In this document: in pieces, positions 279-29,345 of the stretch | How the letters are laid out: each line of letters begins with the position of its first letter | Position numbering within the stretch: the stretch's first letter is position 1 | IMG/VR virus record: IMGVR_UViG_3300033052_000128 | Span: 1 to 32,880 of that record | Strand: one strand, 5' to 3' | Origin: a virus | DNA length: 32,880 nucleotides | Position numbers and translations under genes: made by a program | The notes under the pieces: generated by a model | Told to the model about the DNA's origin: nothing | Databases searched by the model: none | The model's input: the letters and a program-made list of their open reading frames with translations, nothing else

Positions 279-1238
279 ATGTCACGTCAATCAAAGAGAG
301 ACCTGAGCGAGTTCGGCGACCTGTTCATGCCGGACCAGGCGGATGAACCGATCCTGCCGCCGCCCGTGCGCGCCGCGCTGCTGGAATGGCTGACCGAGAT
401 CTGGGCGGACAAGGACCTGCTGGCCGTGGGCATCAAGCCCCGGCGCCGGGCCATGTTCGAAGGCCCGCCAGGAACCGGCAAGACGACCCTGGCGCACCAT
501 ATGGCGGCGCGCCTCGGTCTGCCCATGCTGGCGGTCCGGCCGGATCGGATGATCGGCAAATACATGGGCGAGACCAGCCAGACGATCGGGGCGCTGTTCG
601 AAGCGGCGCGTGCCCAGTTCGATGGGTCGCCCATCGTCCTGTTCATGGATGAGTTCGACACCCTGGCCAGCGACCGGCGCAAGGCGGGGCAGGCGGCCGA
701 CAACGACCGCAATGAGTACGTCGGCACCCTGTTGCAGCGTCTGGAACAGTACGAAGGCTTCCTGATCGCGGCGACGAACCACGCCGACTGGATCGACCAG
801 GCGATCTGGCGGCGGTTCGACATGCATATCACGGTCGATCTGCCGGGGCAGGAAGAGCGCGAGCGCATTCTGGCGCGCTATCTGTCGCCGTTCGGATTGC
901 CTCCCGTGGCGTTGACGCGACTGGGCGAGGCCTTCGCCTCGGCTTCGCCCGCGCTGATGAAAACCGTGTGCGAGAACATCAAGCGGCAGATCGTGCTTGG
1001 CCCCCGCCTGGGGTCGGACATGGGGCGCGAGGCGGTGTTCGCGCGCATCCTGACCAGCGTGCATCCCCACGCGGATCTCGGCACGCCGCGCCTGTGGTCG
1101 CTGGGGGCTAAGGACCCGGCGCTGTGCGTCATGCCGTGGCCCCTCCCGCAGGCGGCTGATCTTCCCGCCCTGGAAGCGTCGGAGGACGATGCGGGTGGTA
1201 ATGACGTCGTCGTTCCGTTCGGCGGACGTCGCCCATGA
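279..1238 (+). CDS. AAA+ ATPase of the phage replication operon
   Basis: This 319-residue protein has one AAA+ module. Walker A is GPPGTGKT (residues 62-69), Walker B is IVLFMDE (119-125), sensor 1 is the Asn of AATNH (about 167), and an Arg-finger-like WRRFD lies at 177-181. A small C-terminal helical domain follows to about residue 260. The layout is that of FtsH/spastin-like AAA ATPases rather than of a bare DnaC loader. It lies directly upstream of a primase and a helicase and overlaps the primase by 4 bases (ATGA at 1235-1238). That suggests a role in loading or remodelling the replication machinery, but the partner is not visible in the sequence. The start is the ATG 2 bases after the upstream stop, which points to translational coupling. 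The AAA+ call is sure; the role is inferred. Confidence 0.88.
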   Translation: MSRQSKRDLSEFGDLFMPDQADEPILPPPVRAALLEWLTEIWADKDLLAVGIKPRRRAMFEGPPGTGKTTLAHHMAARLGLPMLAVRPDRMIGKYMGETSQTIGALFEAARAQFDGSPIVLFMDEFDTLASDRRKAGQAADNDRNEYVGTLLQRLEQYEGFLIAATNHADWIDQAIWRRFDMHITVDLPGQEERERILARYLSPFGLPPVALTRLGEAFASASPALMKTVCENIKRQIVLGPRLGSDMGREAVFARILTSVHPHADLGTPRLWSLGAKDPALCVMPWPLPQAADLPALEASEDDAGGNDVVVPFGGRRP

Positions 1239-3106
1239 CCTTGCGCGGCCTGTCCCTAAGCGCCGCCGCCCTGGCCTATGCCAAGGCGAAGATCGCCGTC
1301 TTTCCGCTGCGGGCGAAGTCCAAGGCGCCTTATGGCCGCACCGTCGGCCTGCACATGGCCTCGGCCGATGTGGCGCTGACGGCGTCGCGCTGGACCGGGA
1401 CGGCGCAGCTGTCGCTGAAGCCGATCGAGGAACTGCGGGAGGCCGCGCGAAAGGCGGGCCGGAACCCGACCGACGCTGAACTGCTGCGGCCGGTGACGGC
1501 GGGCGCGCAGTCGAACGTCGCCATCGCCACCGGAGCCCCGGCGGGCTTTTGGGTGCTGGATCTGGACGGGCCGGAGGCCGTGGCGTGGCTGGCGGCGAAA
1601 GAGGCCGAACACGGACCGCTGCCGGTCACGCCGACGTCGCTGACGGCGCGCGGCGAGCATCGGTGCTTCGCCTGGTGCCCCAAGTCGTCGTCGGAACCGA
1701 TCATCCGCAATCGCTCACGTCTGGACAAGGCGCCGGTCGATGTGCGCGGACAGGACGGATACATCCTGGCGCCGCCCAGCATCCATCCCGGCGATGCAGA
1801 GAAGGGTGTGGCGCCCGGCTATGTCTATCGCTGGGCCGAAGGCCGGTCGCCCGATGATCTGCCGTTCGCCGTCGCGCCCGACTGGCTGATCCTGCTGGTC
1901 AAGCCCGCGCCAGCCGCACCCGTAAAGCCGATGACGCCGCGTGCGCCGGCGGCCGGTAGGGCGTCGCGGTTCGGGGAAATCATCCTGGACCGGGTCTGCG
2001 CCGCCATCGCCTCGGCGCGGGTCGGGACGCGGGACACAGTGCTGTTCCGCGAGTCGGTCGGGATCGGCGCCCTGGTGGCGGGCGGCGAGATCGAGGACGC
2101 CTATGGCCGCGCGGCGCTGGAGAACGCCGGGCGGGTGCATGTGCCGGACGCCATGACCGAGGCCCAGCTGGTGCGCCAGGTGGATCGGGCCATGGCCTGG
2201 GGCGCGCAATATCCGCGCAAGGCCGATCCGACGCGGCCGGCCGGCCCCCGCCGGGCCGAGATGCCGGTAAGGGCGCAGCATGCGGCCCAGCGCGCCCTGG
2301 ACCCCGCCGCATACTGGGCCGAGGCGGTATCAGCGGACACGGCCGTGGTGCGACGGTGGATGTCGGACCTGGCGCTGGACCCGGCCGCCGTGCCCGGCGC
2401 GCTGGGTCGGTTCCGTTTCCATCCGGACGCGCCGGATCGCGAAGGCGAACTGAAGCCCATGCTGCTGGCGCCCATGACGATAGACGGCCGGGGGCCGGTC
2501 GAGGCCCTGGCCATGTTCGATCTGACGGTCGGGGACACGCGGCCGGCGGGGTTCATGGGCAAGGTGCTGGCCGGACGGGCCGTGGCGCTGACCGCCCTGG
2601 ACGGGCGGGGGCCGTTGGTGGTGGCGCTGGACCTGGCGGACGCCTGGATCTTGGCCGGCCGGATGGCGAGGCAGGGGCCGGTTCGGGCCGTGGCCTGTCT
2701 GACCCTGTCGTCGTTCAGCGGTGGGGTGTTGCAGGACGCCTATCGCCGCGTCGATCCCGCCGCGCCGCGTGCGGACGAAAAGTCGCCGCCGTGGCGCATA
2801 CCGCCTGCCTTCCTGACGCCCGGCGAGACCGAGGTGGGTTTCGCGATCCGGCGCGACCTGATCACCGCGCCGCTGCGGTTCCGGGGCGTGGTCGGCGGGA
2901 CGGCCGAGACGCGGCTGAGGGGAGACCAGGCCGCCGCCTATTTCACGAGTCTGACCGTCCAGGCCTGGGAGCGGCTGGACCTGCCAGAGGGGGCGTCGCT
3001 GCGGCTTAGGCCGCTGACGGCGACCGAGGGTGTGAGCTTCCACGATCAACAGCAGAGGGCCGCCCGCAATCGCGTCGGCGCGGCCGACAATGGAGTGCGT
3101 TCGTGA
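1235..3106 (+). CDS. Bifunctional PrimPol-type primase/polymerase with Toprim-like C-terminal region
   Basis: This protein has 623 residues. Residues 10-200 match the archaeo-eukaryotic primase (PrimPol) fold used by many phages and plasmids. The catalytic DLD is at 109-111 after the strand FWVL, the GEH motif has His142, and VDVRGQDGYILAPPS at 168-182 supplies the third acidic residue and the conserved Gly-rich strand. A middle linker follows (about 225-260 and 330-360, Ala/Pro-rich). From about 380 to 500 a Toprim-like region is seen, with LVVALDLADAWILAG near 457-472; the usual acidic positions are only partly recognisable. It probably makes primers for phage DNA replication. The 4-base overlaps with the ATPase before it and the helicase after it mean the three are probably made together. 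The PrimPol call is strong, the Toprim call moderate. Confidence 0.85.
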   Translation: MTLRGLSLSAAALAYAKAKIAVFPLRAKSKAPYGRTVGLHMASADVALTASRWTGTAQLSLKPIEELREAARKAGRNPTDAELLRPVTAGAQSNVAIATGAPAGFWVLDLDGPEAVAWLAAKEAEHGPLPVTPTSLTARGEHRCFAWCPKSSSEPIIRNRSRLDKAPVDVRGQDGYILAPPSIHPGDAEKGVAPGYVYRWAEGRSPDDLPFAVAPDWLILLVKPAPAAPVKPMTPRAPAAGRASRFGEIILDRVCAAIASARVGTRDTVLFRESVGIGALVAGGEIEDAYGRAALENAGRVHVPDAMTEAQLVRQVDRAMAWGAQYPRKADPTRPAGPRRAEMPVRAQHAAQRALDPAAYWAEAVSADTAVVRRWMSDLALDPAAVPGALGRFRFHPDAPDREGELKPMLLAPMTIDGRGPVEALAMFDLTVGDTRPAGFMGKVLAGRAVALTALDGRGPLVVALDLADAWILAGRMARQGPVRAVACLTLSSFSGGVLQDAYRRVDPAAPRADEKSPPWRIPPAFLTPGETEVGFAIRRDLITAPLRFRGVVGGTAETRLRGDQAAAYFTSLTVQAWERLDLPEGASLRLRPLTATEGVSFHDQQQRAARNRVGAADNGVRS

Positions 3107-4782
3107 GTGGATTTGACGATGTCGGGGGACGTCCGGCGGCGGCGGCGCCCTCGACCGATGAAATGTCGCGGTTCGACCTGAACGACGACGGAAACGCCCT
3201 GAGGTTCATCCGCATGGCCGGGGGCATCATCCGGCCCGACGGCGAGATCGACCTGAGCGAGGCCACGGTGCTGTACCTGCGCAAGCGGGGCTGGATCGTT
3301 TTCAACGGCGTGTTCTGGGATCTGGAGACCGGCGAGGCGCGGGCCAAGCGTCACGCCATCAAGGTGGCGCGGTCGATGCATGCCCAGATGGAGATCCGGG
3401 CTGCCGAGATGGAGGCCAAGAACTATTCCTCCAAGTCGATCCAGAGCGTGCGGGATTTCGGCGTGTCGGCCGGGAACGCCAGCCGGATCGGCAATATGCT
3501 GAACCTGGCGGCGTCCTACATGGACGTCGATATGGACGCGTTCGACCCCGACCCGCTGGCGTTGAACGTCCAGAACGGGGTGATCCGGTTCCGCAACGGG
3601 CCGCATATCAACGCCAAGGGCGAAGAGGTGGACGGTCCGCATGTGGTCTGGACCGAGGGCCACCGCGCCGCCGACCGGATGACGCGCCTGTGCGAGGCCG
3701 CCTATCGTCCAGACGCCGCAAGGCCGCTGTTCGACGGGGTGCTGAAATACGCCATCCCGAAGGCCGAGAACCGCCACTGGATTCAGAAGGCGCACGGCTA
3801 CATGGCCACGGGGGAGACCGGCGAGCAGGTCTTCATCGTGTACCAGGGCAAGGGGGGCGACGGGAAATCGACCGTCGTGAACGCCACGGCCCATGCGCTG
3901 GGCACTTACGCGACGACCGTGGGGGTCGAGACCTTCCTGGACACCGGCGTGAAGCGCGGTTCGGAGGCGTCGCCCGATATCGCCGCCCTGGCCGGAGACA
4001 GCCGCATGCTGTGCGCCGGGGAGCCGCCGAGCGGGTCCAAGCTGGCCACCGGGGAGATCAAGAGGTTCACCGGCGGCGGCAAGATCAAGGCGCGCGAACT
4101 GCGCGAGTCGCTGTTCGAGTTCGAGCCGGTCGGCAAGGTGGTGATCGAGTGCAACCGCAAGCCGACCATCAACGACACTGACAACGGGATCTGGCGACGC
4201 CTGAAGATCATGCGGTGGCTGAAGGTCGTGCCCGAGGACCAGATCGACCACGATCTGCCGAAGAAGCTGAAGCGTGAGGCGGACGGCATCCTGAACTGGC
4301 TGATCGAGGGCGTCCTGCTGTGGATGGGCGAGGGGCTGAAGGACGTGCCCGATCTGAAGGAAGCCCTTGAGGACTATCGCAAGGGGGCCAATCCCTTCGT
4401 GCAGTGGTTCGAGGATCGGGTGATCCGGGAGGAGGGCGCTCGGATCGGGGCGACCGTGCTGTTCAAGGACTACCAGGCCTGGATGACCGAGAACGGTCAC
4501 GACAAGGCCATGAGCCAGAAGGCGTTCGGGGGCACGCTGAGCGACCTTCAGATCGGCCTTGGGTCGAAGGACGCCGAGGGCAAGATCACCCGCATGGGCG
4601 CGCGCCTGCGCACGCCGCAGGACGGCTTGGCGGGCGGGTCGGCCGAGGCGGCGACCGCGCGCGCGGCCGACTCCGGTTCCGGCCCCGGCGGGTACGAATC
4701 CGGAGGCGCCACCGGCGACCCGGACGACGGCGCATTCCTGCCTCCCGACACGGATTGGGAGGGCGACGATGACGGACGATGA
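3103..4782 (+). CDS. D5/P4-type SF3 replicative helicase
   Basis: This 559-residue protein belongs to the phage/plasmid primase-helicase C-terminal (P4 alpha/poxvirus D5) group. The D5_N-like helical region covers about 95-225. The SF3 ATPase follows: Walker A GKGGDGKS at about 249-256, a Walker B-like stretch in DSRMLCAGE, the SF3 motif C Asn in VVIECNRKP, and an Arg-rich GIWRRLKIMRW. The C-terminal 60 residues are low-complexity Gly/Asp/Ala and probably disordered. It should unwind phage DNA at the fork as a hexamer, using primers from the PrimPol encoded just upstream. The GTG start at 3103 overlaps the primase stop (GTGA). No primase active site is seen in this protein, consistent with the primase being a separate gene. 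Confidence 0.88.
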   Translation: MSGFDDVGGRPAAAAPSTDEMSRFDLNDDGNALRFIRMAGGIIRPDGEIDLSEATVLYLRKRGWIVFNGVFWDLETGEARAKRHAIKVARSMHAQMEIRAAEMEAKNYSSKSIQSVRDFGVSAGNASRIGNMLNLAASYMDVDMDAFDPDPLALNVQNGVIRFRNGPHINAKGEEVDGPHVVWTEGHRAADRMTRLCEAAYRPDAARPLFDGVLKYAIPKAENRHWIQKAHGYMATGETGEQVFIVYQGKGGDGKSTVVNATAHALGTYATTVGVETFLDTGVKRGSEASPDIAALAGDSRMLCAGEPPSGSKLATGEIKRFTGGGKIKARELRESLFEFEPVGKVVIECNRKPTINDTDNGIWRRLKIMRWLKVVPEDQIDHDLPKKLKREADGILNWLIEGVLLWMGEGLKDVPDLKEALEDYRKGANPFVQWFEDRVIREEGARIGATVLFKDYQAWMTENGHDKAMSQKAFGGTLSDLQIGLGSKDAEGKITRMGARLRTPQDGLAGGSAEAATARAADSGSGPGGYESGGATGDPDDGAFLPPDTDWEGDDDGR

Positions 4783-4994
4783 CGGACGAACGGACGATCA
4801 GGGGCCGGGTCTGGTCATCGCGCGACGCCTCGCCGGACCTTCGAACCTCTGTCCCTCCGTCGATCATCCGGCCCGCAAAGCCAGTCGTGGCGGCGCGAAC
4901 GGACGATGACGGACGATACGGACGATGCGGCGGGGTTGGGCTCCATAAGCCGGGTGTGCGGGTGAGGCGGCGTGAACGGGTGGGTGATCGTCCG
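4773..4994. repeat. Iteron-like cluster of CGGACGAT; candidate replication origin
   Basis: CGGACGAT occurs at 4773-4780, 4791-4798, 4900-4907, 4910-4917 and 4919-4926, with the near copy CGGACGAA at 4783-4790 and an inverted copy at 4987-4994. Spacing within the two groups is 8-10 bases, about one helical turn. The first group overlaps the end of the helicase gene; the rest lies in DNA without a convincing gene. Iterons next to replication genes are a known layout for phage and plasmid origins. That this one is an origin is inference. Confidence 0.5.
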
Positions 4995-5056
4995 TCTGCT
5001 GTGAGCGGGATTTGCGGGGTCGGTGTGGTGATCTCTTTGGGTTTGGATTTGGTAAA
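4783..5056. other. Intergenic region, candidate origin; no convincing gene
   Basis: This stretch separates the helicase gene from the next gene. It holds most of the CGGACGAT cluster. Then, at 5036-5053, come three TTTGGR hexamers in tandem (starts 5036, 5042, 5048), the most A/T-rich point nearby and possibly a strand-opening element. A 93-codon frame (4779-5060) spans it with ATGA overlaps at both ends. Its third-base G+C is only about two thirds, well below the neighbouring genes, and its product is Arg/Gly-rich without recognisable motifs, so I do not call it a gene. Confidence 0.4.
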
Positions 5057-5812
5057 ATGAGAAACAATCCAGAAAACTTCATCGAAAGAGAACAGGGCGA
5101 ACCACTCGCCCTGCACCTCTATCGGAACGCCGATGTGATCGGCTGCGACGTCAGCCAACGCCGCCGCCTGCGCCACGCCGCCGCCCTCTGCGTCCGGGGG
5201 CACCAGGCGCCACACAGCGCCACAGTCGAGGGTCGTCAGGATCGTATCGATGCGGGCCGCATCGCCGACGCCGTGAACCGCGAACTGCGGGCCGGGATGG
5301 ATGAGATCGTCGATCATGCCCATGCCATCGGCGAGGGCGTGGACACCTACAACGACGCCGGCGCGCTGCGGATGAGTTCACGCGATGGGCTGTGGGGTGC
5401 GCAGCAGGCCGAGGACATCGAAGACGACCAGGCCGCCACGGGTCTGGCCTATCGCCTGCTGTTCGAGATTGTCGGTGCATCTCAGCTGGGATCGCAGCTG
5501 GGACGGGTGAACGAGGCGTCGATCAAGGCGTCATCGTCGGATGGGGATGCGGCCCGTGGCCTGTTCCGCGCCTATGCCGGGGTGCGGTTGACCACGGCCG
5601 AGGCGCTGGTGCTGAAGGCGGACCCGACCCAGCGCGCGCTGCGGGTGCTGCGGGCTGTGGCTGGCGAGGGCCGGACGCTGCGGTCTCTTGGGGCAGGTAG
5701 CAACCCTCGCAAGGCCAACGCCACCGCCCTCGTGGTCGCGCTGGATGCAGCCCGGCCGGTGCTGATCGTCGAACGTAAGCCGCTCCCCCCTTGCGAATCG
5801 GGCACGACTTGA
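5057..5812 (+). CDS. Phage protein of unknown function
   Basis: This 251-residue protein is not recognised. The ATG at 5057 is chosen because coding-like codon choice begins there; an upstream GTG/ATG extension would run into the repeat region. No clear Shine-Dalgarno sequence precedes it. The N-terminal third is basic and His-rich. The middle (about residues 75-175) looks helical and acidic. The last 70 residues (TTAEALVLKADPTQRALRVL, then RAVAGEGRTLRSLG) could form a small helix-turn-helix-like bundle, but no canonical motif can be named. It sits between the replication block and the packaging genes and is followed by a terminator. A regulator of the late genes would fit this place, but nothing in the sequence proves that. 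Confidence 0.65.
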   Translation: MRNNPENFIEREQGEPLALHLYRNADVIGCDVSQRRRLRHAAALCVRGHQAPHSATVEGRQDRIDAGRIADAVNRELRAGMDEIVDHAHAIGEGVDTYNDAGALRMSSRDGLWGAQQAEDIEDDQAATGLAYRLLFEIVGASQLGSQLGRVNEASIKASSSDGDAARGLFRAYAGVRLTTAEALVLKADPTQRALRVLRAVAGEGRTLRSLGAGSNPRKANATALVVALDAARPVLIVERKPLPPCESGTT

Positions 5813-5879: not shown

Positions 5880-6026
5880 CGTGCCCGATCAAGGGGTTAC
5901 GGCAGGGGGCGCGGGTCCTCCCTGGGGCCACCCGTATGCGGTGGGGCTGAGCGCAATCATTCGGCAGGCTGGGCCACTTTCGAAAGCCTAAAACTCAAGC
6001 CCACCCTAAAGGACGGAGGTTTAGCC
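5880..6026. other. Probable cos/packaging-start region
   Basis: No gene is seen in these 147 bases. In phages with Nu1/GpA-type terminase the cohesive-end site lies just upstream of the small terminase gene. The region holds a G-rich patch (about 5902-5916), a CCACC/GGTGG inverted repeat (5928-5944), and the palindrome TTTCGAAA (5978-5985). Any of these could be part of cosN or cosB, or an operator. I cannot place the nick site from sequence alone. GGACGGAGGT (6011-6020) is the ribosome-binding site of the terminase gene. Confidence 0.4.
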
Positions 6027-6683
6027 GTGACCGACGCTCAAGGGGCGGGCGCCGAAACCGTCTCCAAGGGCGAGTTTGCGGGCATCTGCGGAGTCTCGCC
6101 GGGGCGTGTGTCCCAGTGGATCTCGGAAGGGAAGCTGACCGAGGAGGCGTTGGACGGCCAAGGGCCGCGCGCCAAGATCAAGGTTCACATCGCCCAGGCG
6201 CAGCTGCGGTCGCGGATCGACGTCGGCCAGAGGTTCGGCAACGGACTGAAGACCCGGCTGCGAGCGCCGCTCGCGCGGCCTGCGAACGAACCCGCCGGGG
6301 CAACACAGGTGACGGTCACGCCGGTCGATACGGTCGAGGAACAGATCAAGCGCGAAAAGCTGCGCGAGATGGAGTTCAAGAACCGGGAAGCCCTGAAAAA
6401 GGAACTGGCCAGCCGGGGCGAATATGTCCGCACGATCGACGTCCGGGTCGGCTACGATCAGGTCGCCATGGGGATGGTCACCGTGTTCGAGGGCGCGCTG
6501 ACCGACTTCGCTCAAGCCATAGCGGCGCGGTTCGAGGTGCCGCAGCGTGACGTGCTGCACCTGCTGCGCGGTGAGTTCAGGAAGGTGAGGGCCAGCGCGG
6601 CCCAGGCGGCTCGCCGGGCTGGTTCGGAGCTTCCGGGTGCTATCGAGGACGAGGCCGCGCCGCCATCGGCCGAGGCGGCCTGA
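6027..6683 (+). CDS. Terminase small subunit (Nu1-like)
   Basis: This 218-residue protein starts at a GTG preceded by a strong Shine-Dalgarno sequence (GGAGG at 6015-6019). Residues about 12-45 (SKGEFAGICGVSPGRVSQWI, then SEGKLTEEAL) form the winged-helix-turn-helix typical of lambda Nu1-type subunits, which bind cosB. A helical region with many charged residues at about 105-140 (VEEQIKREKLREMEFKNREA) is the likely oligomerisation segment. The C-terminus probably contacts the large subunit. It overlaps the large terminase gene by 1 base. Longer than lambda Nu1 (181 residues), but same order and architecture. Confidence 0.82.
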   Translation: MTDAQGAGAETVSKGEFAGICGVSPGRVSQWISEGKLTEEALDGQGPRAKIKVHIAQAQLRSRIDVGQRFGNGLKTRLRAPLARPANEPAGATQVTVTPVDTVEEQIKREKLREMEFKNREALKKELASRGEYVRTIDVRVGYDQVAMGMVTVFEGALTDFAQAIAARFEVPQRDVLHLLRGEFRKVRASAAQAARRAGSELPGAIEDEAAPPSAEAA

Positions 6684-8677: not shown

Positions 8678-8883
8678 CCGACTATTCGGCCGAGATCGCG
8701 GCCCTGTATTCCGCGCTCGCCAACGACACCCTGCGGGTGAAGGTCGGCGACAAGGACACGACCTTCCACACGGCCGCCGAGATCGAAAAGCGCATCGCGA
8801 TCCTGACGCGGGCGCAGGCTTCGGCCAGCGTGGCCGCCGCGCCCCGGTTCGGCAGCACCCTGGCCGCGTTCGGAGACGACTGA
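8674..8883 (+). CDS. gpW-like head-tail joining protein
   Basis: This small 69-residue protein lies between large terminase and portal, exactly where lambda has gpW. The sequence has an N-terminal helix (AEIAALYSALAND), a beta hairpin (TLRVKVGDKDTTFHT) and a second helix (AAEIEKRIAILTRAQAS), as in the gpW alpha+beta fold. gpW-type proteins attach under the portal after packaging and let the tail join. The gene overlaps the terminase by 4 bases (ATGA) and the portal by 1 base. Assignment rests on length, fold pattern and place. Confidence 0.75.
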   Translation: MTDYSAEIAALYSALANDTLRVKVGDKDTTFHTAAEIEKRIAILTRAQASASVAAAPRFGSTLAAFGDD

Positions 8884-16423: not shown

Positions 16424-19132
16424 ATGACGACCAAGGTGTTCGCCGTCCGGCTGAAGCCGGAAGGCACCTCCGAAACCGTGTCGGCGGTTAAGTCGGCCGA
16501 GACCGCCATCGTCCATGGCGCGGACGCCGCCGACGCCGCCAATGCGCGGGCTGCGGCCTCGGCCGAGCGTCTGGCGGCCAAGTACAACGCCATGGCCCAG
16601 GCCGCCCAGGCCAGCGCCCGCGCGGGCACGGCGCAAGCCCAGATCAACGGCGTCCTGGGCGTGGATCGGCCGATGTCGAACGCGCGGATCTCGGCCGATG
16701 TCTTCGCCTCGGCCGACGACGATGCGAAGAAGGCGGCGGCGCTGAAGGCGATCATCGATCCGCTGGCGGCTGCGCAGGACCGCTACAACGAGGAACTGGC
16801 GGAATATGCGCGGTTGCAGGCGGCCGGCGCGCTTCAGACCAACGAACGGATCGTGCTGGAGGGCCGCGCCAAACAGAGGCTGGACGAGACGACGGCCGCG
16901 CTTCAACGCCAGGAGCGGGGCCTGACCCGTCTTGCCATCGCCTCGCGGGCCAACCTGGTGCAGCAGGCGTTTGACGTGGCCGTGACGGCGCCGTTCATGA
17001 ACCCGGCGACCATCGCCCTTCAGCAAGGCCCTCAGATCCTGACGGCCTGGTCCACGGCGGCGATCAAGTTCACGCCCGCCATGTTGGCGGCGGGCGCCGC
17101 CATCGGCGTGGTGGGCGCGGCGGCGACCGTGGCGGTCGGCGGGTTCCTGGCGGGTGAAAAGGCCGCCAAGGGCTTTGAGGCGGCCGTCAGCGGCGCGGGT
17201 CGGGTGTCAGGTCTGACCTCTAGCGAGCTGCGCAAACTGGTCTTTCAGGCGGCCGACCTGGGCGACGTTTCGATCAGCAGTGCGCGCGACCAGGCGACGG
17301 CTTACTTGTCCACGGGCAAGATCGGGCGGGCCGTGCTGGTCGATCTGATCGCGGTAGGAAAGGACTATGCCCAGATGATGGGCATGGACGCCGAGGCGGC
17401 GACCAAGTCGTTGGCGGACGCCATGCTGGCGCCGGACAAGGCCGGGCGAGATCTGACCCGGACGATGGGTCTGCTGGACCAAGAGGCGCTGAAGCAGATC
17501 GACAGTCTCATGAAGTCTGGCGATCTGTTGGCTGCGCAGCGTATCCTGCTGGACGCCGTCAGCGATGCGGCGGCCGGTCAGGCCGATAAGGTTGGGCTGA
17601 TCACGAATGCCTGGGACGCGGTGGGGACCTCCATCAGCAACGCCGTGACCAAGCTTGGCGAATGGATGTACCTGACCGAGGGCGAACGTCTTCAGCAGAT
17701 CATTAATCAGCAGGCTTCGATGGAGCGCGGCCAGCGGGAGAGTGGCAGGCCATTTGATGCGCGGTCGGAGGGACTCTATCGCCGCAATGAGCGAGAGTTC
17801 AGGACCATCATGGCCGCCCGCCAAGCGCGCGCGGCAGCCGCCGCCGAAGCGACAAAAAACCAGCAGGCGCAGTTGTCCAAGGATCGGTATGACGCCGGCG
17901 CGCCGGATCGGCGTAATGCGGCCGCCGAGGCTCGCCGCCTGGCTGCTGATGCGGCGCGAGCAGCACAAGAGGCCTTGGCCAAGAAACGCCGTGAAGAGGA
18001 TGCTCGCGCGGCGCTGGCCTTGGAAATGGCTCGGGCGCGCGGGGATATTGATGAAGTGCGGCGGATCGAGGATGCGAACGCCGCTCGCACCCGCACCCGC
18101 CAGCTGATCGACGATGGGACCGACGCCGAAAAGGCCAGGCTTCAGGCGGTAAAGGAGCAGGGCCAGATCATCGCCGCGCGCCAAGGCGCAGCGGAGCGAG
18201 AGGCGGCTGTCCTGACTCGGACAACCTTGATCGAGGTCGAACGGATCAAGGGCAACGCCCGCACGGCGGATGAGATGGCCAAGCATGGGGAGTTGGTCCA
18301 GCGGATCAACGCCTATACGCAGACGGGCCTGGGCTATTACGCCGCCTGGCTGAAGGCGGCCACCGACATGAAGGCGGTGGAAGAGGGTCGGGCCGAGGCG
18401 ATGTCGCGCGCCAACGCCGCCGCCGATCTGGAGCGCCGCGCGCGGGTGGCCGGCTTGAGCGGGGACTGGCGGTCGGCCCGCGAACTAGACCGCGAGATCA
18501 GCATCAATGCGCGGGCGCGAGAAATCGAGGCGCGGGGTCGGGACGGACGGCCGCTGAACGAAGGCGAAGGCCTGGCCGAGGCCAAGAGACAGATCGAGGA
18601 AGAGACGCGTGCAGCCTTGATCGGCGCCCGCCGAGGCTGGGCCACCGGCTTGGCCCTGGACATCAAGAACAGCGGCATCAAGAGCGCCATGAGCGACCAG
18701 CTGAGCCGTGCCGGGGACCGGCTGATTGAAAACATCATCGACGGTCTGTCGAAAGTGAAGTGGGGGGATTCGGGCGCTGGAAGCTGGATTTCGAAGGGCC
18801 TGAACATGTTCTTCGGAAAGAACGCCGAGGGGACCAACGACTGGCGCGGCGGCCTGACGTGGGTCGGCGAGCGGGGCAAGGAACTGGTCCATCTGCCGGG
18901 CGGATCGCAGGTCTTCAGCCACGGCCAGTCGATGGCCATGACCCGCAAGGGCATCGGCGGGACAGGGGTTGGGCCGACGGTGATCCAGGCGACCTACGCC
19001 CCGAGCTACCAGGTCAGCGGCGTGGACATGGAGCGGATGGAGGCGATGATGGCCCAGGATCGTGCGGAGTTCGAAAGCCGCACGATCGCGACCGTGAATG
19101 ACGGCATCGCCCGCCGGCTGATCGCGTCGTGA
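16424..19132 (+). CDS. Tail tape measure protein
   Basis: This is the longest tail gene so far in the order, 902 residues, starting at an ATG after GGAGGG (16411-16416). It is mainly helical and Ala-rich, with coiled-coil stretches at about 40-175 and 430-760 (many EARRLAADAARAAQEALAKK-type heptads). A hydrophobic segment at about 205-245 (STAAIKFTPAMLAAGAAIGVVGAAATVAVGGFL) is typical of the part that later enters the host membrane. The C-terminus has the usual WVGERGKELVHLPGGSQVFSH region. It sets tail length and may help DNA pass into the cell. At about 1.5 Å per residue, 902 residues would predict a tail near 135 nm. It overlaps the next gene by 4 bases. Confidence 0.9.
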   Translation: MTTKVFAVRLKPEGTSETVSAVKSAETAIVHGADAADAANARAAASAERLAAKYNAMAQAAQASARAGTAQAQINGVLGVDRPMSNARISADVFASADDDAKKAAALKAIIDPLAAAQDRYNEELAEYARLQAAGALQTNERIVLEGRAKQRLDETTAALQRQERGLTRLAIASRANLVQQAFDVAVTAPFMNPATIALQQGPQILTAWSTAAIKFTPAMLAAGAAIGVVGAAATVAVGGFLAGEKAAKGFEAAVSGAGRVSGLTSSELRKLVFQAADLGDVSISSARDQATAYLSTGKIGRAVLVDLIAVGKDYAQMMGMDAEAATKSLADAMLAPDKAGRDLTRTMGLLDQEALKQIDSLMKSGDLLAAQRILLDAVSDAAAGQADKVGLITNAWDAVGTSISNAVTKLGEWMYLTEGERLQQIINQQASMERGQRESGRPFDARSEGLYRRNEREFRTIMAARQARAAAAAEATKNQQAQLSKDRYDAGAPDRRNAAAEARRLAADAARAAQEALAKKRREEDARAALALEMARARGDIDEVRRIEDANAARTRTRQLIDDGTDAEKARLQAVKEQGQIIAARQGAAEREAAVLTRTTLIEVERIKGNARTADEMAKHGELVQRINAYTQTGLGYYAAWLKAATDMKAVEEGRAEAMSRANAAADLERRARVAGLSGDWRSARELDREISINARAREIEARGRDGRPLNEGEGLAEAKRQIEEETRAALIGARRGWATGLALDIKNSGIKSAMSDQLSRAGDRLIENIIDGLSKVKWGDSGAGSWISKGLNMFFGKNAEGTNDWRGGLTWVGERGKELVHLPGGSQVFSHGQSMAMTRKGIGGTGVGPTVIQATYAPSYQVSGVDMERMEAMMAQDRAEFESRTIATVNDGIARRLIAS

Positions 19133-28250: not shown

Positions 28251-28679
28251 ATGACTTACTCGCTAGGCCAGCAATCCCGCGCGCGCCTAAAGGGGGTTCA
28301 CCCCGACCTTGTGAAGGTCGTGGAACTGGCGATAAAGAAGACTGCGACCGACTTCCTAGTTCTGGAAGGCGTCAGGACGCCAGCGCGGCAAAAGGAACTC
28401 TACGCCCAAGGTCGGACTAGGCCGGGCCAGGTCGTCACCTGGACGCTCACGAGCAACCACTTCGCCAAGGCTGACGGCTTCGGCCATGCCGTCGATCTGG
28501 CGCCCTACCCGGTGGACTGGAACGACCTCAAGAAGTTCGACGCCATCTCCAAGGCGATGTTCGCCGCCGCCGCCGAACTGGGCATCAGAATCCGCTGGGG
28601 CGCGGACTGGGATCAGGACGGCAAGTCGCGTGAACGTGGTGAGAGCGATAGTCCTCATTTTGAGATCATGACCGACTAG
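28251..28679 (+). CDS. M15-family peptidase endolysin
   Basis: This 142-residue protein is an L-alanyl-D-glutamate/D-Ala-type peptidase of the M15 family, as in phage T5 lysin. Zinc ligands fit His70 (TSNHF), Asp82 (GHAVDLAP) and His136 (SPHFE), with the catalytic acidic residue just before it (Asp133). The ILxGxRTxxRQxELYxQGR-type stretch (EGVRTPARQKELYAQGRTRPG, about 40-61) is typical. IRIRWGADWDQDGK precedes the last motif. It cuts the peptide cross-links of peptidoglycan after the holin lets it out. No signal peptide is seen, so it depends on a holin. The ribosome-binding site is GGAGA, 6-10 bases upstream of the ATG. Confidence 0.9.
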   Translation: MTYSLGQQSRARLKGVHPDLVKVVELAIKKTATDFLVLEGVRTPARQKELYAQGRTRPGQVVTWTLTSNHFAKADGFGHAVDLAPYPVDWNDLKKFDAISKAMFAAAAELGIRIRWGADWDQDGKSRERGESDSPHFEIMTD

Positions 28680-28712
28680 CACATAGCAAGAACATCATTT
28701 AGAAGTTGTCGC

Positions 28713-29345
28713 ATGGCTACACCGCTGCGCGACATTTCGAATCAGACCTTCGGGCGCCTCACAGCGATCCGGCGGGATGGAAAGATCGGAACCGCGACCG
28801 CGTGGATTTTCCGCTGCACGTGTGGTGTCGAGAAGCGCATTCGGATGGGTCCTGTCACTAGCGGCGTCGTTGGATCTTGCGGCTGCTTGCATAGGGAACG
28901 GTGTGCTACGGGGCTAAACCGCCGCACGCACGGCGACGCCAAGGTCGGTCAGGTGTCGCGGCTGCACAACCTTTGGCGCGGAATGCTAAAGCGATGCTCC
29001 CCTAACTATCCAGATTATGCGGGTGCCTACCGCGCTCGGGGAATTACGGTCTGCGCTGAGTGGCTGGCTTACGAGCCTTTCAAGGCCTGGGCTGAAGCTA
29101 ACGGCTATCGAGACGACCTGACGATTGACCGGATCGACAACGACAAGGGCTACTCGCCCGACAACTGCCGTTGGGCTGACAAGACGACGCAAGCTCGTAA
29201 TCGCCGCACCTCGCGACACATCACTATCGACGGCAGGACGCAGGTCCTCGCTGCATGGCTTGCGGAAGCGGGCATCACACCCCCGGCCTTCTACGGCCGC
29301 CTGCAACGCGGCTGGACTGTAGAGGCCGCCCTCACCCCCAAATAG
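28713..29345 (+). CDS. HNH-type endonuclease-like protein (free-standing)
   Basis: This 210-residue protein has the common phage layout of an N-terminal Zn-finger-like part and an HNH part. The N-terminal part is FGRLTAIRRDGKI ... CTCGVEKRI ... VVGSCGCLHRE. The later part is LWRGMLKRCSPN ... GITVCAEWLAYEPFKAWAEANGY, then the core LTIDRIDNDKGYSPDNCRWA and TTQARNRR. The C-terminal HITIDGRTQVLAAWLAEAGITPPAFYGRLQRGW looks like a DNA-binding tail. Such genes behave as free-standing homing endonucleases and insert between phage genes. It stands inside the lysis cassette. The codon choice has more A and T than in its neighbours, suggesting later arrival. The ATG follows a weak ribosome-binding site (GAAGTTGTCGC). 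Confidence 0.8.
   Translation: MATPLRDISNQTFGRLTAIRRDGKIGTATAWIFRCTCGVEKRIRMGPVTSGVVGSCGCLHRERCATGLNRRTHGDAKVGQVSRLHNLWRGMLKRCSPNYPDYAGAYRARGITVCAEWLAYEPFKAWAEANGYRDDLTIDRIDNDKGYSPDNCRWADKTTQARNRRTSRHITIDGRTQVLAAWLAEAGITPPAFYGRLQRGWTVEAALTPK

Follow-up and report, generated by a model that had tools for sequence, protein, structure and literature searches.

A putative replication origin downstream of the helicase gene

The region from 4772 to about 5000, directly behind the initiator helicase gene, is most likely the replication origin of this phage, where the helicase would read the word ACGGACGAT and the PrimPol would provide the primers. We put the probability of this reading at about 0.87. 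A candidate origin had been proposed here from the letters of the window alone (by window we mean the whole stretch analysed, the 32,880-base virus record IMGVR_UViG_3300033052_000128, which may be a fragment of a genome). The proposal is now supported, because the repeat cluster is unique in the window, is conserved in place among relatives, and occupies the position that holds an annotated origin in phages A2 and Sfi21 and, in P4, the crr. To judge from these comparisons, the element is real and functional, and it is very probably replicative. This provides a concrete and testable origin for an uncultivated phage.

The element follows a replication operon encoded on the plus strand. The operon includes a AAA+ ATPase gene (279-1238; Pfam AAA, 5e-27; phrog_3757), a gene for a primase-polymerase of the archaeo-eukaryotic type (Prim-Pol, 1235-3106; PF09250, 7e-25), and the gene of a D5/P4-type SF3 initiator helicase (3103-4782; PF08706 D5_N, PF03288 Pox_D5, and phrog_1156 at 2.5e-100). 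After the helicase gene come a non-coding gap, an unknown gene (ATG at 5057), and lambda-type packaging genes (TerS at 6027, TerL at 6683, portal at 8883).

The repeats are arranged in four blocks. Block A1 (4772-4798, plus strand) overlaps the stop codon of the helicase gene and has copies starting at 4772, 4782, and 4790, which read ACGGACGAT, ACGGACGAA, and ACGGACGAT, the middle one with one mismatch. The middle block M (4829-4877, minus strand) contains degenerate inverted copies, including ATCATCCGG at 4863-4871 with two mismatches. Three exact copies of ACGGACGAT, starting at 4899, 4909, and 4918, make up block A2 (4899-4926, plus strand), and block E (4987-4995, minus strand) is a single inverted iteron. 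The sequence-only reading had described this cluster in terms of the octamer CGGACGAT, with five exact copies, a near copy, and an inverted copy after the helicase block. All were located between 4773 and 4994: the exact copies at 4773, 4791, 4900, 4910, and 4919 on the plus strand and at 4987-4994 on the minus strand, and the near copy, CGGACGAA, at 4783. The spacing of 8-10 bases that it gave within groups holds when counted from start to start (10 and 8 in the first repeat group, 10 and 9 in the second).

It is the clustering of the octamer, not its number, that is significant. In the 400 nt that follow the stop codon of the helicase gene, the most frequent 7-mer has 7 copies, against a shuffle mean of 2.4, and this count was reached in none of 100 shuffles and none of 316 other windows. 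Outside the element, the densest 7-mer cluster that the window has in any 230 bp counts 5 copies, and the count stayed at or below 5 in all 60 simulations under an order-3 Markov model. No second comparable repeat cluster was found in the 32,880 bases of this possibly partial record, in agreement with the sequence-only reading, which had noticed no such cluster elsewhere. The condition that would have refuted the proposal, an octamer equally common across the genome, is answered in two parts: it is clustered beyond chance, but its enrichment over the whole window is mild (7 observed for 3.06 expected, a value reached by 2 of 100 shuffles), with one more copy standing isolated at 17459. The GC skew, which had been suggested as a guide, was uninformative, with no switch at the element in the window sequence.

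The 60 bases from 5036 (5036-5095, plus strand) have the lowest GC content of all 60-mers in the window (35%), so the claim that the most A/T-rich point adjoins the cluster stands for the stretch as a whole. The hexamers thought to form it had been described as three TTTGGR at 5036-5053 and read TTTGGG-TTTGGA-TTTGGT, where two of the three fit; they are present in the near-identical locus L004 and absent from L003. The stretch is a plausible unwinding element, as had been proposed, but the next gene, with its leader, also begins within it, and it adjoins the last block instead of lying between blocks. Next to it in AT content comes 28647-28710 (37% GC over 60 bases), which directly precedes an ORF at 28713.

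Conservation of the element across the helicase family

The sequence-only reading had tied its case to the conservation of this place in relatives, and repeats do follow the helicase gene in L003, L004, and others. Every repeat copy of the window element is kept in L004. L003, with a helicase about 69% identical to that of the window, has the element in the same place but with the word ACGGAGGAT, with the same base changed together across several repeat copies. The three forward copies of block A1 are conserved in L003, L004, and L008-L016, and the position of block M has clear inverted copies in L003 and most relatives. Block A2 is kept in L004 and degenerate in L003; block E is kept in both in the form GATCGTCCGTC.

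We also scanned viral contigs blindly, i.e., for three spaced ACGGASGA words and without using the gene. The scan returned 9 contigs. In each, the array is at most about 30 bases away from where the gene of a homologous helicase ends, even if the helicases of the more distant group are just 37-40% identical to that of the window. As a negative control, a looser repeat pattern returned 19 other contigs, which by look have simple repeats or unrelated sequence, without the element or its layout. One contig with the loose pattern, L034, has AACGGATGA repeats at 4490-4520. The scan of bacterial genomes for the helicase gave no confirmed match, and no DNA match to the element was found among named phages.

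The wider family was sampled with an alignment of eight helicases, from which 80 loci were drawn by protein similarity (out of at least 582 confirmed stretches). The drawn loci and five reference loci (the window, L003, and three named records) gave 74 non-redundant loci with enough sequence. A cluster was accepted when a 7-mer was repeated in the first 400 nt past the helicase stop with p ≤ 0.02 relative to shuffles and was matched by at most 5% of the other windows of the same locus. Significant clusters were found in 56 of the 74 loci. The arrangement is not universal, since 18 of the 74 have no significant cluster after the helicase and Bordetella phage BPP-1 (L118) has none in the 400 nt after its primase gene. 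The absence was noted earlier for BIP-1, a relative of BPP-1 (PMC4234260). The case of BPP-1 suggests that a second type of origin may exist among such replication proteins.

The order of the blocks is far more stable across loci than the repeated word, which can be ACGGACGAT, ACGGACAGT, ACGGAGGAT, ACAGACAGT, CTGAACAGT, GGGAGGAT, AGGGAGGC, ACGGCGGGTT, GGAAGGGTT, or others. The order forward, inverted, forward, inverted fits 23 of the 25 elements related to that of the window (when orientations were shuffled, 2.4 elements fitted on average and 9 at most), a figure that is a description and not a probability, because the pattern was defined after viewing the elements and because the loci share ancestry. 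A second group, with GGGAGG words, commonly has forward, forward, and inverted blocks with variable ends. The similarity between iterons correlates with the similarity between helicases (r = 0.70, 38 loci). The partial correlations with the word are 0.17 for the winged helix (p = 0.026) and 0.22 for the ATPase part (p = 0.007), and these statistics do not tell whether the specificity for the word lies in the winged helix or elsewhere in the helicase. In L059 and L047 the word CTGAACAGT resembles the type 1 repeat of P4 (GGTGAACA), yet their helicases group with the family of the window.

We lean towards the view that the large class of phages with D5/P4 helicases has one origin design, with a fixed block order after the helicase gene and a word that drifts with the helicase. 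A constant layout with a drifting word across the family is more interesting than a single element. The paired helicases and words are natural data on how such initiators choose their origins. If the class does share one design, origins could be read from sequence for many uncultivated phages, and a recognition code of the winged helix could be derived from the pairs.

Alternative functions of the repeats

The alternative that survives best, itself very unlikely, is that the repeats are an operator array for a phage transcription regulator of late genes, or a site at which the NusG-like protein of some relatives acts in antitermination. The element lies between replication and packaging genes, and an antiterminator gene is directly downstream of it in L009. 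However, the element persists with unrelated unknown genes downstream in other relatives, and because the downstream genes differ, it can be said to go with the helicase. Phages A2 and Sfi21 have annotated origins at the homologous positions, and an operator leaves unexplained why the word tracks the helicase. A regulator operator is possible as a second role, since an origin can at the same time serve to regulate the gene downstream of it. The gene in L009 (948-1508, phrog_6386) is NusG/RfaH-like, and a similar gene was seen by eye just after the element of L010; the window phage has none there.

We give slightly less credit to a terminase recognition site (cos/cosB), in which the repeats would be bound by the small terminase subunit. 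The TerS gene starts 1 kb downstream with one gene between, a lambda-type TerL follows, and Rhodobacter phage RcapNL has an annotated cohesive end about 300 nt behind its copy of the helicase gene. Yet a better cos candidate, the GGGTCCTCC motif, is found at 5913, just upstream of TerS, and a motif like it is also present downstream of the helicase gene of L003, L004, L012, L039, L040, L042, L046, L048, and L049, which makes a cos role for the repeats unlikely. Moreover, the repeat word varies with the helicase, and the cos of Sfi21 is annotated about 6 kb from its origin. In the window, the candidate cos site corresponds to a GCGGGTCCTCCC motif at 5905-5930, between a terminator-like hairpin and TerS.

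Lower still in probability is a structured single-stranded element, recognised by its shape and not by its word. A precedent comes from pRN1, which depends on a stem-loop of 100 nt located behind the gene for its primase-helicase; the same was proposed for phage BIP-1 (PMC4234260). Forward and inverted copies such as those of the window can indeed pair. Against this, the blocks are mostly direct repeats whose word is kept, and the strand across the element folds no better than shuffles (z = +1.06), with no stable stem-loop of about 100 nt like that of pRN1; a hairpin origin was rejected on this score.

Chance or coding repeats can be dismissed, since the shuffles, other windows, and Markov simulations exclude chance, and the open frame of 93 codons that spans the element (4779-5060) has a stop in L004, is broken in L003, and was rejected as a gene. 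As this frame is not conserved, the comparison indicates that the DNA words, and not a protein, are under constraint.

A possible mechanism of initiation

Under the origin reading, the most likely repeat-binding domain is the winged helix at the end of the helicase. In the AlphaFold model of the protein (pLDDT 88), residues 431-503 form a winged helix (helix-strand-helix-helix-strand-strand at 431-502), followed by a tail predicted to be disordered, and the match to PF03288 at residues 429-480 falls in this C-terminal region. The closest solved structures are D5-type viral primase-helicases (PDB relatives C962R and D5/E5).

We propose that the winged helix of each helicase subunit would read one nine-base word ACGGACGAT. 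With copies spaced 8-10 bases apart, adjacent subunits would then be separated by roughly one turn of the helix and would sit on nearly the same side of the DNA. Forward and inverted blocks could load one or two helicase rings (hexamers), one per strand, for replication in both directions. The adjoining AT-rich DNA would melt, the helicase would unwind it, and the PrimPol encoded next door would prime both strands. The unwinding site is the least certain of these steps. The stretch at 5036-5095 is the best candidate; family-wide, the GC content dips about 125 nt and 250-325 nt after the helicase stop, and the window has only the second dip, which is also a gene start.

Comparison with known origins

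The origins of phages A2 and Sfi21, which we know here from their GenBank annotation, have reportedly been tested experimentally. The helicase of Lactobacillus phage A2 is 29% identical to a relative of that of the window. Its annotated rep_origin (AJ251789, 32208-32717) starts at the end of the primase gene and is full of ACGGGAGGAT in forward and inverted orientation. As in the window, this origin is directly after a homologous primase/helicase gene and has forward copies first and inverted copies last. The A2 unit is near-identical to ACGGACGAT, with one extra G, so the remark that the motif of the window was not a familiar one is fair for the exact word only. In contrast to the window, phage A2 has a long AT-rich stretch between the forward and inverted blocks, a much longer primase ORF, and a Gram-positive host. 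In Streptococcus phage Sfi21 (NC_000872) the origin is annotated at 34487-34784, after the primase gene. It resembles the element of the window in being a non-coding region of about 300 bp after a putative primase/helicase gene, with repeats in both orientations, and differs in its word, AAGTAAC, and in its AT-rich stretch, which is central, between the blocks. The region is also labelled 'phage inhibitory sequence', which suggests that origin fragments of this kind may serve as decoys against phage.

Similar arrangements are found beyond these two phages. The crr of P4 (4291-4590, annotated as required in cis) has type 1 octamer repeats and directly follows the alpha gene. These repeats are bound by the alpha protein. 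Like the window, P4 has short repeats in both orientations, about 9-11 apart within groups, and an initiator with an SF3 helicase part. Unlike the window, with its single cluster and Prim-Pol, it has two repeat regions about 5 kb apart (ori plus crr) and a primase domain of bacterial type (PMC4234260). The Rep helicase of SaPI and the Cch2 helicase of SCCmec bind, via their C-terminal domain, iterons placed directly downstream of their own genes (PMC7581432), which is where the iterons of the window lie, although the words are other ones and these are satellite or cassette elements, not a phage that carries packaging genes itself. The arrangement is also found in phage RcapNL and in a Tritonibacter plasmid that has a terminase gene, each with words of its own. 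In summary, these comparisons suggest that the candidate origin of the window belongs to a known kind, that of A2, Sfi21, P4, and SaPI, with a different exact word, and they join scattered results on single phages into one rule that describes 56 of the 74 sampled helicase loci.
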